A stretch of DNA of 48,072 nucleotides from Gemmatimonadota bacterium (GTDB lineage Bacteria; Gemmatimonadota; Gemmatimonadetes; Gemmatimonadales; Gemmatimonadaceae). The DNA lies in assembly GCA_031127095.1 (NCBI GenBank), contig JARIEX010000008.1, forward strand, positions 1 to 48,072, read 5' to 3'. Shown here piece after piece: positions 1,634-39,555 of this stretch (position 1 is the stretch's first letter; each line of letters begins with the position of its first letter). The notes beneath the pieces were generated by a model. That model was not told the origin of the DNA, did no database searches, and saw only the letters and a list, made by a program, of their open reading frames with translations. The translations under genes were made by a program, and so were the position numbers.

Positions 1634-3127
1634 ATGGCCACCATTCTGTACGTCGATGACGAGCCAAGCGTCGGGCTGATCCTCGAGGACTCCCTTGCGC
1701 AGGCCGGCCATACGCCGGTCGGTGCGCGCAGCGTCCCCGAGGCGCTGCAGGTGTTGGAGCGGGGCGGCATCGACCTGATCATCTCCGACTACCGTATGCC
1801 GGGGCTCTCCGGGCTGGAGTTCATCCAGTTGCTCGCCCGGGAGGGGTACGACATCCCGCTGATCATGCTGACGGGGCACGCCAGCATCGAGCATGCGGTC
1901 ATGTCGATCAAGGCCGGGGCGATCGACTACATCACCAAACCGGTCCGCCCCCAGCAGCTCGAGCTGGCGGTCGATCAGGCGCTCGAGTTCGTCCGGCTGC
2001 GTCGCGAGAACGAGACGCTCCGTAAGGAAGTGATGCAGTTCCGGAACGAACGGCAGATCATCGGCGACTCGCCGGCGATCCGTCGGATCCTTCAGACGGT
2101 CTCCATGGCCGCCCCCACGCGGGCCACGGTGCTGCTGCAGGGGGAGTCGGGCACGGGTAAGGAGCTGTTCGCCCGCGCCATTCACGACCAGAGCGAGCGT
2201 CGCGACAAGCCGTTCATCAAGCTCAACTGTGCCGCGCTCCCCGAAGGGCTGGTGGAATCGGCGTTGTTTGGTCACGAGAAAGGCGCGTTCACCGGTGCGA
2301 TCAAGCGGGTGGAAGGCGCGTTCGAGCGGGCCAACCGCGGCACCCTGCTGCTGGACGAAATCTCCGAAATGCGCCTCGACCTTCAGGCGAAGCTGCTGCG
2401 CGTGCTGCAGGAGCAGGAGTTCGAGCGGGTGGGCGGCACCTCCCCCATCAAGGTCGATGTGCGCATCGTGGCCACGACCAACCGGGATCTGGCGGCCGAG
2501 GCCGACCAGGGGACGTTCCGGCAGGACTTGTACTATAGATTGTCCACGATCCCCGTCCTGATTCCGCCCCTGCGCGAACGCCCCGAAGATATCGCGGTGC
2601 TGGCGCTGCGCTTCGCCATGCGGACAGCGGCCGAACTGGGCAAGAAGATCGACGGCCTCTCGCCGGACGCACTGGAGTCGATGCAGCAGTATCCGTGGCC
2701 CGGCAACATCCGCGAACTGCAGCACGTGATCGAACGGGCGGTCATTTTGACCCCCGATCCGATGATCCACGCGCACTGCCTGGAAGGCACGCGCTTCGGG
2801 CTGGCCCATTCGCTGGGCGCCCCATCCATCCGCCCGCGGGTCATCCCCGTGCCGGGTGCGTCGGGCCCTGCCACGTCACCGTCCGGCGTCGGCCACGGGG
2901 CTGGCGCGGTTGCGGCCGGGGCCGCCGCAGGGGGCGGCACGGGCGGCAGCCAGATCGCGCTCACGTCGCTCAACGTGGCCGATGCGGAGCGGGTGCTGAT
3001 TCAGCATGCGCTGGCGGCTGCCGATAATAACCGGACCAAGGCGGCGGAGCTGCTGGGCATCAGCGTGCGCACCCTCCGCAATAAGCTCAATGGCCCCGGC
3101 AAGGACGCCGACGCCGACGACGAATAG
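1634..3127 (+). CDS. Sigma-54-dependent response regulator, NtrC/FlrC family
   Basis: This is a 497-aa transcriptional activator with three parts. The receiver domain (residues 1-120) has acidic residues D8, D9 and E10, phospho-acceptor D52, T80 and K102. The AAA+ domain (about 140-375) has Walker A GESGTGKE at 170 and the sigma-54-contacting GAFTGA loop at 217-222. A Walker B-type segment GTLLLDEISE follows. The C-terminal Fis-type HTH starts near 453 (NRTKAAELLGISVRTLRNKL). A Gly/Ala-rich linker of about 60 residues separates the last two domains. By position it is the likely FlrC/FleR equivalent acting on the promoters at 3320, 31308 and 38793; that link is inference. No cognate kinase is adjacent, and the only kinase-like gene in the window (45179) is degenerate. 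Confidence 0.92.
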   Translation: MATILYVDDEPSVGLILEDSLAQAGHTPVGARSVPEALQVLERGGIDLIISDYRMPGLSGLEFIQLLAREGYDIPLIMLTGHASIEHAVMSIKAGAIDYITKPVRPQQLELAVDQALEFVRLRRENETLRKEVMQFRNERQIIGDSPAIRRILQTVSMAAPTRATVLLQGESGTGKELFARAIHDQSERRDKPFIKLNCAALPEGLVESALFGHEKGAFTGAIKRVEGAFERANRGTLLLDEISEMRLDLQAKLLRVLQEQEFERVGGTSPIKVDVRIVATTNRDLAAEADQGTFRQDLYYRLSTIPVLIPPLRERPEDIAVLALRFAMRTAAELGKKIDGLSPDALESMQQYPWPGNIRELQHVIERAVILTPDPMIHAHCLEGTRFGLAHSLGAPSIRPRVIPVPGASGPATSPSGVGHGAGAVAAGAAAGGGTGGSQIALTSLNVADAERVLIQHALAAADNNRTKAAELLGISVRTLRNKLNGPGKDADADDE

Positions 3128-3221
3128 TCGTCGGCACGGTGGTGGGCGGCAATTATGGTCCGCACCGTACCCGGCAAGAGTTGCCCGATCGGCGTGATTG
3201 ACCACACGGGCCTTGCCTGCA

Positions 3222-3265: not shown

Positions 3266-3304
3266 ACAGCAACGAGTTAGCGCGCAATACGCGATGTGTT
3301 TCCG

Positions 3305-3340
3305 ATGGCCGGGCCCGTGTGGCCCGGCCATTGCTTTTTA
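3305..3340 (+). terminator. Terminator-shaped hairpin overlapping the flgB promoter
   Basis: An 11-bp perfect inverted repeat (3305-3315 with 3321-3331) has a 5-nt loop CGTGT and is followed by TGCTTTTTA. As RNA this has the stem plus U-tract form of an intrinsic terminator for readthrough from the regulator gene. The right arm and the T-tract also form the sigma-54 promoter element at 3320-3335. Confidence 0.6.
3320..3335 (+). promoter_or_regulatory. Sigma-54 type promoter for the flgB-flgE operon
   Basis: The sequence TGGCCCG-GCCA-TTGCT matches the -24/-12 consensus TGGCACG-N4-TTGCW at 11 of 12 fixed positions. GG and GC are spaced as required. The predicted start is near 3346, about 37 nt before the flgB ATG. 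A near copy with the same hairpin context lies upstream of flgF at 38793. Confidence 0.72.
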
Positions 3341-3372
3341 CCGGTGTGGATACGCTCGCCCATTCACACCGG
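3341..3372 (+). promoter_or_regulatory. Inverted repeat covering the flgB ribosome binding site
   Basis: CCGGTGTG (3341-3348) is complementary to CACACCGG (3365-3372). The right arm runs into GGGAA, the only Shine-Dalgarno-like sequence before the flgB ATG at 3383. A transcript reading through from upstream would carry the whole stem. One starting at the sigma-54 site (about 3346) would lack most of the left arm. Either an RNA switch or a DNA operator is possible. Confidence 0.4.
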
Positions 3373-3382
3373 GAATTCTCAG

Positions 3383-3685
3383 ATGCTCTTCGGACTCGTT
3401 GATCGCAGCACCTCAGCCACCTCGCTCAAGGGAGCACTCGACCGCAGTGTCGAGCGCTCGCGTGGTATCGCGGATCGCGTCTCGAAGGCCTCCGTGCAGA
3501 ACGGCGACGGGTTCGCGCTGGAAGCCAAGGCCGGGACGGCCGTCGCCAACGCGAATCCGGTCAACCTCGAAGACGAAATGACGGCGCTGGCCGATGAGCA
3601 GATCCGCTTTCTCGCCACGAGCCGCCTGCTCGAAAAGACCTACGCCAGCCTGCGCACGGCGATCAAGGGCGGAGGGAACGGCTGA
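3383..3685 (+). CDS. flgB: FlgB, proximal rod protein (short, divergent)
   Basis: FlgB is one of the proximal rod subunits built on the MS ring and FliE. This product is only 100 aa, against about 130 for the family. The C-terminal half is typical: VNLEDEMTALADEQIRF, then LLEKTYASLRTAIKGG. The N-terminal half lacks the rod/hook signature (ANNIANADTPGY type); in its place is GIADRVSKASVQNG. Identity therefore rests on the C-terminal helix and the position in front of flgC and fliE. The start follows a GGGAA 8 nt upstream. The stop overlaps the flgC start (TGATG), indicating translational coupling. First gene of the basal body operon. Confidence 0.82.
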   Translation: MLFGLVDRSTSATSLKGALDRSVERSRGIADRVSKASVQNGDGFALEAKAGTAVANANPVNLEDEMTALADEQIRFLATSRLLEKTYASLRTAIKGGGNG

Positions 3686-37405: not shown

Positions 37406-37440
37406 CCGTGTCACTCGCTTCTCCTCAAGGACCCGCCAGC

Positions 37441-38196
37441 ATGAACGCGAAACTCTGGCAGTCGTATCACGCCGGGAATGACACCGCGCGCGACCGTCTG
37501 CTCGAGGAACACCTCGGCCTGGTGCATCACGTCGCACGACAGATCTCCCGCACCCTCTCGGTGCGCGCTGATTTCGACGAGCTGGTGAGCGCCGGCACGA
37601 TCGGCCTCATGGCCGCGCTGGAAGGCTTCGATGCCTCCCGCGGGCTCGCCTTCAGCACGTTCGCGGCCCCCCGCATCCGCGGCGCCATTCTCGACGAACT
37701 CCGCAAGCAGGACCACGTACCGCGCAGCATCCGCCGCAAGACGCGTGAGATCAGTGCCGCCCGCGAGGCCTTTCAGCGCGCGCACGGCCGGGCGCCCGAA
37801 GACCGGGAGCTGGCCGAGTCGCTGAACGTGGACATGGATACCCTCTGGCGCTGGCAGGCCGACGTGGAAGGCGCGCACCATGTGCCGCTCGACCGCGCAC
37901 CGGGCGACCGCGAAAATTCGGCACCGGTGCCGGCCGACATGCTCTCCAATGATGGCGAGAACGATGTCGACGACAGCCTCACGCACGAGCAGGAGGTCTC
38001 GCACCTCAAGGCGGCCCTCCAGCACCTCAAGGAGCAGGAGCGCGTCGTGCTGTCGCTGTACTACTTCGAAGAGCTCAAGCTGCACGAGATCGCGAAGGTG
38101 CTCGAGCTCACGGAGTCGCGCGTCTCGCAGATCCGCTCCAAGGCGCTGGGCAAGCTGCGCATCGAGCTCACCCCGCTCCGCGGCGACGCCGAATGA
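37441..38196 (+). CDS. fliA: FliA/SigD, flagellar sigma factor (sigma-28)
   Basis: FliA directs RNA polymerase to late flagellar promoters such as those at 1489 and 19783. The 251-aa protein has region 2 (FDELVSAGTIGLMAALEGFD, then FSTFAAPRIRGAILDELRKQ). It also has region 3 (RAPEDRELAESLNVDMDTLW) and region 4 (HEIAKVLELTESRVSQIRSK). ATG 37441 is preferred because AAGGA lies 9 nt upstream; a GTG at 37408 is also in frame. It overlaps the next gene by 4 nt. No anti-sigma flgM was found in the window. Confidence 0.95.
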   Translation: MNAKLWQSYHAGNDTARDRLLEEHLGLVHHVARQISRTLSVRADFDELVSAGTIGLMAALEGFDASRGLAFSTFAAPRIRGAILDELRKQDHVPRSIRRKTREISAAREAFQRAHGRAPEDRELAESLNVDMDTLWRWQADVEGAHHVPLDRAPGDRENSAPVPADMLSNDGENDVDDSLTHEQEVSHLKAALQHLKEQERVVLSLYYFEELKLHEIAKVLELTESRVSQIRSKALGKLRIELTPLRGDAE

Positions 38197-38606
38197 AGGG
38201 CGCGGCCATGATGCGTGAATCGCTGCAGATGCTCGCCGTGGGCGTCGGCGTCACGGTGATCGGCCTGCTCGTCGGTGCCGTGGTCGTGTCCCCGGCCGTC
38301 TCCCCGACGCAGCGCCTGCTGGGAATCGGCGCCCTCGCTGGCGCCGCCGCGCTGTGGTACGTCGCCCGGTTCGTGCTCCGGGCCCTGCGGCAACGCCCCG
38401 CCCGGACCCCACGGTCGCCGCGCCAGACGGCGGCGCCCACCATCAAACTCGGTGGCGGCCGCAACACGCGGACCCCGCGTGCCGTGGCGGCGCTGGCCGC
38501 GGCCGGGGCCGATCCGTCCGAAATCGCCCGGAAAACCGGACTGTCGTTCGACGCCGTATCAATGCTGCTCCGGCTCGCCGGCGGCGCGGTGCCCACCGCG
38601 GCCTAG
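38193..38606 (+). CDS. SwrB/YlxL-like membrane protein with HTH-like C-terminus
   Basis: A 137-aa protein with two membrane segments near the N-terminus: QMLAVGVGVTVIGLLVGAVV, then LLGIGALAGAAALWYVARFV. A basic Arg/Pro linker follows. The C-terminus reads PRAVAALAAAGADPSEIARK, then TGLSFDAVSMLLRLAG, resembling a DNA-binding-like helix-turn-helix. In Bacillus the gene right after sigD is swrB (ylxL), a single-pass protein with the same helical tail that promotes FliP/export gate assembly. Position and layout agree, but sequence similarity is only general. It is coupled to fliA by a 4-nt overlap. Confidence 0.62.
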   Translation: MKGAAMMRESLQMLAVGVGVTVIGLLVGAVVVSPAVSPTQRLLGIGALAGAAALWYVARFVLRALRQRPARTPRSPRQTAAPTIKLGGGRNTRTPRAVAALAAAGADPSEIARKTGLSFDAVSMLLRLAGGAVPTAA

Positions 38607-38641: not shown

Positions 38642-38777
38642 AACTCCCGCCGATGCGGGGCCACCATCCGGTCCGTCACGGCACGAATTGCCGACCTCCG
38701 GGTTCCCCAGACACCCGACTCGGCACCCCGCAGTACCGCATAAGATCAAGCAGCATAACAACTTATGAAAAATCCTC

Positions 38778-38813
38778 CGGTCGGGCCATTTGTGGCCCGA
38801 CCGTTGCTTTTTC
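38778..38813 (+). terminator. Terminator-shaped hairpin overlapping the flgF promoter
   Basis: CGGTCGGGCC (38778-38787) and GGCCCGACCG (38794-38803) form a 10-bp perfect stem with a 6-nt loop. It is followed by TTGCTTTTT. The form and even the TTGCTTTTT tail copy the element at 3305-3340. The right arm forms the -24 box of the sigma-54-type promoter. Confidence 0.6.
38793..38808 (+). promoter_or_regulatory. Sigma-54 type promoter for flgF-flgK-csrA
   Basis: TGGCCCG-ACCG-TTGCT matches the consensus at 11 of 12 fixed positions, with the -24 and -12 boxes identical to the flgB promoter. The predicted start near 38819 leaves a leader of about 32 nt before flgF. Downstream, CTGGTGTATCCGTGCC also resembles the sequence after the flgB promoter. 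Confidence 0.72.
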
Positions 38814-38850
38814 CCCTGGTGTATCCGTGCCCTCTTTCCCGACCACGACT

Positions 38851-39555
38851 ATGCCAGGACCCGTCCGTACCAACGGTATGAGCAGTGCCGCCGCCGCCAT
38901 GCAGATGCTGGAGCGGAAGCAGCAGGTGCTCGCCAACAACCTCGCGAACGCCTCCACCCGCGGCTTCAAAGCGGAAACGGCGTTCTCGCGGCTCATGGAC
39001 AACCAGCTCGCCAAAACCGATACGGCCCTCGACCTCTCCGCCGGCAACCTGACCGAGACACACAACAGTCTCGATCTCGCCGTCGAGGGGGATGGCTTCT
39101 TCGTGACCCAAACCCCCAACGGCGAACGCTTCGTCCGCAACGGCAGCTTCCGGCTCGATGCCGGTCGCCAGCTGGTGGATGAGCGCGGCAACCCCGTCAT
39201 GGGAGAGAGCGGCCCGATCGTGCTGCCGCAGGGCACCGTCGAGATCGGCGCCGATGGCATGGTCAAGGTGAACAACCACGCCGTTCAACGGCTGCGCCTC
39301 GAGCGCGTCGCCCCCGGCACGCAGCTCCAGCACGAGGGCGGCACCCAGTTCGTCCCCGACGCCAGCCGCCAGGCCATTCCCCCGGCCGAACGCTCGGTGA
39401 AGCAGGGTTTTCTGGAAGAATCCAATGTGAACACGATGTCGGCGATGACCGACATGCTCGCGGTGCTGCATCGCTATGGCGCCGCACAAAAAACGCTGTC
39501 CACCATCGACGCGGTGCGCGGGATCGCCGTGAACGACCTCGCCAAGCCCGTCTAA
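38851..39555 (+). CDS. flgF: FlgF, proximal rod protein
   Basis: FlgF is a rod subunit next to FlgG. The 234-aa protein has QMLERKQQVLANNLANASTR, then GFKAETAFSRLM, the rod signature. LDLAVEGDGFFVTQTPNGER and the C-terminus FLEESNVNTMSAMTDMLAVL are typical. ATG 38851 is used; ATG 38878 (MSSAAAAMQM) is the alternative. Neither has a good Shine-Dalgarno, which is notable for the first gene of an operon. It is 12 nt before flgG. Confidence 0.9.
   Translation: MPGPVRTNGMSSAAAAMQMLERKQQVLANNLANASTRGFKAETAFSRLMDNQLAKTDTALDLSAGNLTETHNSLDLAVEGDGFFVTQTPNGERFVRNGSFRLDAGRQLVDERGNPVMGESGPIVLPQGTVEIGADGMVKVNNHAVQRLRLERVAPGTQLQHEGGTQFVPDASRQAIPPAERSVKQGFLEESNVNTMSAMTDMLAVLHRYGAAQKTLSTIDAVRGIAVNDLAKPV

Follow-up and report, generated by a model that had tools for sequence, protein, structure and literature searches.

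Probable intrinsic terminators superposed on putative sigma-54 promoters before flgB and flgF in a Gemmatimonadota genome

Two hairpins in a Gemmatimonadota flagellar gene cluster, one before a probable flgB and the other before flgF, share their bases with putative sigma-54 promoters (Table 1). Comparison with relatives makes it probable that each element is an intrinsic terminator of the upstream operon, overlapping the sigma-54 promoter of the next. The covariation found in the stems most likely reflects selection for termination, not a role for the hairpin in the promoter. The window (the whole stretch of DNA analysed, 48,072 nucleotides) is one contig of a 3.5-Mb genome; its closest named relatives belong to Gemmatimonas or are metagenome-assembled genomes of Gemmatimonadota.

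Table 1. Positions in the window of the flgB and flgF elements and of the features around them.
Feature	Position	Strand	Remarks
NtrC-family sigma-54 activator (receiver, AAA+, Fis-type HTH)	1634..3127	+	co-directional, upstream of the flgB copy
GGCAAGAGTTGCC, GGCA-N5-TGCC palindrome	3173..3185		147 bp before the -24 box of flgB
flgB hairpin, first copy	3303..3333	+	13 pairs including G-T; stem extends into TTG of the -12 box
flgB putative sigma-54 promoter, TGGCCCG-GCCA-TTGCT	3320..3335	+	T-run continues to 3339
probable flgB	3383..3685	+	C-terminal half matches FlgB models, score below cut-off
FliA/WhiG-type sigma-28	37408..38196	+	upstream of the flgF copy
small conserved ORF, 137 aa, no family	38193..38606	+	co-directional, directly upstream of the flgF copy
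GGCACGAATTGCC, GGCA-N5-TGCC palindrome	38680..38692		113 bp before the -24 box of flgF; likely activator site
flgF hairpin, proposed terminator stem, CGGTCGGGCCATTTGTGGCCCGACCG	38778..38803	+	stem 11 bp, loop TTTG
flgF putative sigma-54 -24/-12 promoter, TGGCCCG-ACCG-TTGCT	38793..38808	+	stem's 3' arm doubles as -24 box and spacer
flgF -12 box and T-run, TTGCTTTTT	38804..38812	+	candidate U-tract in read-through RNA
flgF	38851..39555	+	start codon about 32 bp past the predicted sigma-54 start (about 38819)

The flgF hairpin has an A-T pair at the top of its stem. Folded as RNA it has a minimum free energy (MFE) of -26.1 kcal/mol (z -6.5), and none of 200 shuffles was equally stable. The tail after the stem has T at seven of nine positions, with GC in the middle. 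The sequence-only reading had placed this element at 38778-38813; its sequence and coordinates are right except at the end, since the T-run stops at 38812 and position 38813 is a C. That reading had also described the flgB element as having the same boxes and a different stem, and this is borne out: the flgB element, 3303-3339 in all, has the same layout, with TGGCCCG-N4-TTGCT at both sites. Its hairpin has an MFE of -27.6 kcal/mol (z -5.4 in the shuffle comparison), and its longer stem leaves CTTTTT as the tail. In both promoters the GG and GC of the -24 and -12 boxes are present, at consensus spacing.

Such sites are rare in the window. Just four positions on its + strand form a 10/10 stem closed by a loop of 3-9, and two of them are the flgB and flgF TGGC sites; the next-best among about 440 TGGY sites has an 8/10 stem. 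A scan for a stem plus a T-run on the same strand also puts these two sites first (scores 18.0 and 15.5; the next is 11.5), while 20 shuffled windows gave one hit of at least 15 in total. Exact TGGC-N7-TTGC sequences on this strand are limited to the flgB and flgF promoters. Across the genome, pattern searches returned further strict sigma-54 matches that were mostly inside coding frames or due to chance. One other consensus site, TGGCACG-AGCA-TTGCT (C152:6228-6243, - strand), is about 100 bp before a likely PEP-CTERM gene, and has neither a complementary upstream arm nor a hairpin; the sequence-only reading had counted sigma-54 sites of this kind against selection of the hairpin itself, and this is one.

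The flgB and flgF sites look like sigma-54 promoters, as had been claimed from their sequences: the same genome encodes RpoN (E 4.7e-62), an NtrC-like activator gene is adjacent, and a GGCA-N5-TGCC palindrome is found upstream in 40 of 54 flgB and flgF regions of the genus (permuted motifs in 6 of 54 or fewer), usually 110-150 bp before the promoter. The NtrC-like activator encoded at 1634-3127 probably binds this palindrome. The predicted flgF transcription start is derived from the position of the -12 box; because the hairpin is upstream of this start, it would be absent from the flgB and flgF mRNAs and present only in read-through RNA.

Several other conserved sequences were seen around these promoters. 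A motif resembling AACAACTTA, in the 38758-38766 region some 30 bp before the -24 box of flgF, is conserved in the genus between the activator site and the promoter. Both flgB and flgF have a segment of approximately GRRTTCGYKYRCCCTTTC ahead of the start codon and after the predicted sigma-54 start (3351-3375 and 38819-38840), and relatives of the genus have it too; before flgB, many relatives place this segment in the loop of a stem, and the stem sequence differs by species (variants include CCGGTGTG/CACACCGG, GTACCGGA/TCCGGTAC, and GGTCCGG/CCGGACC). Away from these genes, the end of the contig (47608-48072) is an 80-bp tandem repeat of 5.8 copies, rich in ACTC/GAGT inverted units and CACGTGAGTC.

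Within the genus, 27 flgF and 27 flgB upstream regions were gathered by a protein search independent of the motif. All 54 keep the promoter core; 20 of the flgF and 8 of the flgB regions contain a close embedded stem, and in two more flgB regions (L080 and L087) the same 3' arm pairs across a long loop (GGGCGGG/CCCGCCC; MFE -30 and -33, z -6.5 and -4.6). The single-contig genome G029 carries the stem at both loci. In most of the stem-bearing relatives, 0 of 2000 shuffles match the stem. The proposal that hairpin and promoter form one joint element is not supported by this comparison: the stem is lost and the promoter kept in 17-19 of the 27 flgB regions and 7 of the 27 flgF regions, a pattern which the sequence-only reading had itself named as telling against it, so that its own grounds for refutation hold in part.

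The covariation of the spacer bases, first noticed between the two copies, is found in the relatives as well. In aligned stem-bearing loci, three of the four pairs in the spacer change in a compensatory way (counted in the correct register): pair 1 occurs as C-G, T-A, and G-C, pair 2 as G-C and C-G, and pair 4 as T-A, C-G, and G-C. Because relatives carry these changes, the hairpin itself has been selected, as had been suggested, but in part of the genus and not as a component of the promoter. A formal count, restricted to the outer eight pairs because the inner two, and L135, are out of place in the MAFFT alignment, found 94% paired cells vs. 87% in shuffles and a covariation score of 0.223 vs. 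0.092; 0 of 500 shuffles reached either value, and the result was far above slid registers. The pairing looks RNA-type, with G-T pairs tolerated and loop lengths of 5-7 nt across relatives. Within the -24 box the 3' side is invariant, while the 5' side includes G-T pairs and, in one clade, a T-C mismatch; five flgB relatives retain this mismatch in the stem, which is a point against a terminator.

A hairpin that acts as a terminator would be expected to matter only where transcription comes from upstream. Inserted genes of differing direction at the flgF loci provide a natural experiment: the embedded stem is present in 20 of the 23 regions where the upstream gene is co-directional, and in none of the four where it is divergent (L040, L048, L051, and L055); in L056, which has an unrelated co-directional gene upstream, the stem is retained. 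The flgB neighbour in the genus is always the co-directional activator gene, and here a separate terminator-like hairpin is found upstream in 10 of the 17 regions without an embedded or long-loop stem, and in 0 of the 10 with one; that in L078, for example, is ACCGACCGGCAGGAATTTCCTGCCGGCCGGT-TTTTGTC. Fisher tests give p 0.002 for the flgF stem against neighbour direction and p 0.003 for replacement at flgB, both ignoring relatedness, with some three or four changes of each state on the tree behind them, an independent-pairs test low in power, and classes partly assigned by eye (L083, L080, L087, and some neighbour orientations). Across these sequences, stem presence tracks an apparent need to stop transcription from upstream, not the promoter.

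There are exceptions, which speak against an overlapping terminator. Despite co-directional neighbours, L050 and L058 have no stem and L041 has a partial one, and the T-run is retained in stem-less flgB promoters of the genus. Seven flgB loci have neither a stem nor a separate hairpin, though L072 and L076 retain apparently decayed hairpins; L034 has an embedded stem and a separate terminator together. Several of the separate flgB hairpins contain a GGCA/TGCC core, and so could be operators.

Outside the genus, three genomes of g24 have the same element with the same stem at flgF, and g16 has a flgF element with a new stem; CCGGCGGGC/GCCCGCCGG is a different stem seen in the same place outside the genus. 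In g29 the whole flgF promoter is folded into a stem, and in g20 separate terminators are found 30-40 bp upstream of the promoter. Many others have neither an embedded stem nor a separate terminator; in most other genera, fliA is co-directional and upstream of flgF yet the embedded stem is absent, a further argument against the terminator reading. Of the promoters outside the genus, 4 of 4 with a stem have a T-run after TTGC, against 3 of the 28 that lack one. The g29 promoter (L154, L165, and L169) is wholly inside a near-perfect palindrome, GGGCAACCGG-CACA-CCGGTTGCCC, and its reverse strand is also -24/-12-like.

An intrinsic terminator overlapping a sigma-54 promoter might act as follows. 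Polymerase would arrive from the upstream operon, which is the NtrC-like gene before flgB and the long flgB-to-fliA run before flgF. In the read-through RNA the 3' arm, GGCCCGACCG, would pair with CGGTCGGGCC, and UUGCUUUUU after the stem would release the RNA. In the DNA, that 3' arm would serve as -24 box and spacer, and the start of the U-tract as -12 box; sigma-54 RNA polymerase would bind there, and the activator at its upstream site would open it. Because sigma-54 promoters strictly require an activator, a leak from upstream transcription would defeat their control, and the hairpin may shield the sigma-54 operon from read-through. We infer termination, sigma-54 initiation, and this insulating role for these bases from sequence comparisons; their sharing would pack the operon boundary into about 35 bp. 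One argument against efficient termination is the GC that interrupts the U-tract, which may weaken it; the interruption would be forced by the -12 box.

Four other readings of the stem were weighed. As a DNA operator, it would bind a dimeric regulator on both arms over the -24 box, controlling access of the sigma-54 holoenzyme. The strong conservation of the flgF arms, GGTCGGGCC/GGCCCGACC, across most of the genus would fit this, although conservation of the half-site within the -24 box can be attributed to sigma-54. Against it, the stems vary in arm spacing (loops of 5-7, and long loops in L080 and L087) and in arm sequence, which differs in complementary fashion between sites and genera; the stem is also missing where the upstream gene is divergent, and seems exchangeable with a separate terminator-like hairpin. 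Loop variation and replacement by separate hairpins disfavour this reading, and we regard it as quite unlikely. It is very unlikely that the hairpin belongs to the promoter mechanism, with extrusion of a hairpin or cruciform in the -24 box DNA tuning closed-complex binding or melting. Stem, -24 box, and spacer do coincide exactly at both sites, and the covariation is located in the spacer. The promoter is however present in 54 of 54 genus regions and the embedded stem is not, which places the hairpin outside the promoter mechanism; many relatives and the PEP-CTERM site of the same genome have a promoter without a stem, and stem presence follows the direction of the upstream gene. A promoter-intrinsic hairpin was rejected because the promoter persists where the stem is absent.

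A conditional attenuator, in which an antiterminator or RNA-binding protein at the hairpin would regulate read-through into flgB or flgF, would suit an overlapping terminator between co-directional flagellar operons, and the conserved sequence between promoter and start codon is in its favour too. It seems highly improbable nonetheless, as relatives lose the stem or swap in other hairpins, and inspection short of a systematic search showed no conserved partner for an alternative pairing. An Rfam covariance-model search of the element gave no match above gathering score or chance, and identity with an Rfam riboregulator was rejected for this reason. Finally, TGGCCCG is GC-rich and partly self-complementary, and might yield hairpins by chance as a by-product of promoter sequence. 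This is hardly credible, given that two of the four 10/10 stems on the + strand coincide with the only two exact consensus promoters there, and given the shuffles of the stem-bearing relatives; the compensatory changes and conservation data contradict it.

Beyond the preferred reading of overlapping terminator and promoter, these elements could be cases of a recurring design: sigma-54 promoters would evolve within intrinsic terminators, a parked closed complex would act together with the hairpin to block incoming polymerase, and read-through would in turn evict the sigma-54 polymerase. We consider this unlikely. If true, it would link one flagellar operon's output to the next, and the flgF elements of g24 (same stem), g16 (new stem), and g29 (folded promoter) would be repeated inventions. 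In any case, a terminator made from the promoter's own bases would be compact, one sequence meeting both constraints. A conserved stem at a promoter can belong to the preceding operon, which calls for caution in interpreting such stems, and the boundaries of flagellar operons become testable in a phylum for which transcript data are sparse.

Junctions at which the terminator of one operon overlaps the promoter of its neighbour are known in general. As in these, one transcript would end and the next begin within shared sequence here; the difference is that -24 box, spacer, and -12 box are exactly superposed on stem and U-tract. No account of so exact a superposition for sigma-54 was found in the open-licence papers searched, which is weak evidence of absence. 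The elements resemble intrinsic (Rho-independent) terminators in their GC-rich stem, short loop, and T-rich tract directly after it, in their position after a co-directional gene, and in their exchange with separate terminator-like hairpins among relatives; they differ in the GC interruption, and in that the 3' arm and the start of the U-tract double as a putative sigma-54 promoter. With other sigma-54 (RpoN) -24/-12 promoters they share the TGGC-N7-TTGC core, the adjacent NtrC-family activator, and palindromes about 110-150 bp upstream, whereas their -24 box is TGGCCCG in place of the usual TGGCACG, and is embedded in a terminator-shaped hairpin.
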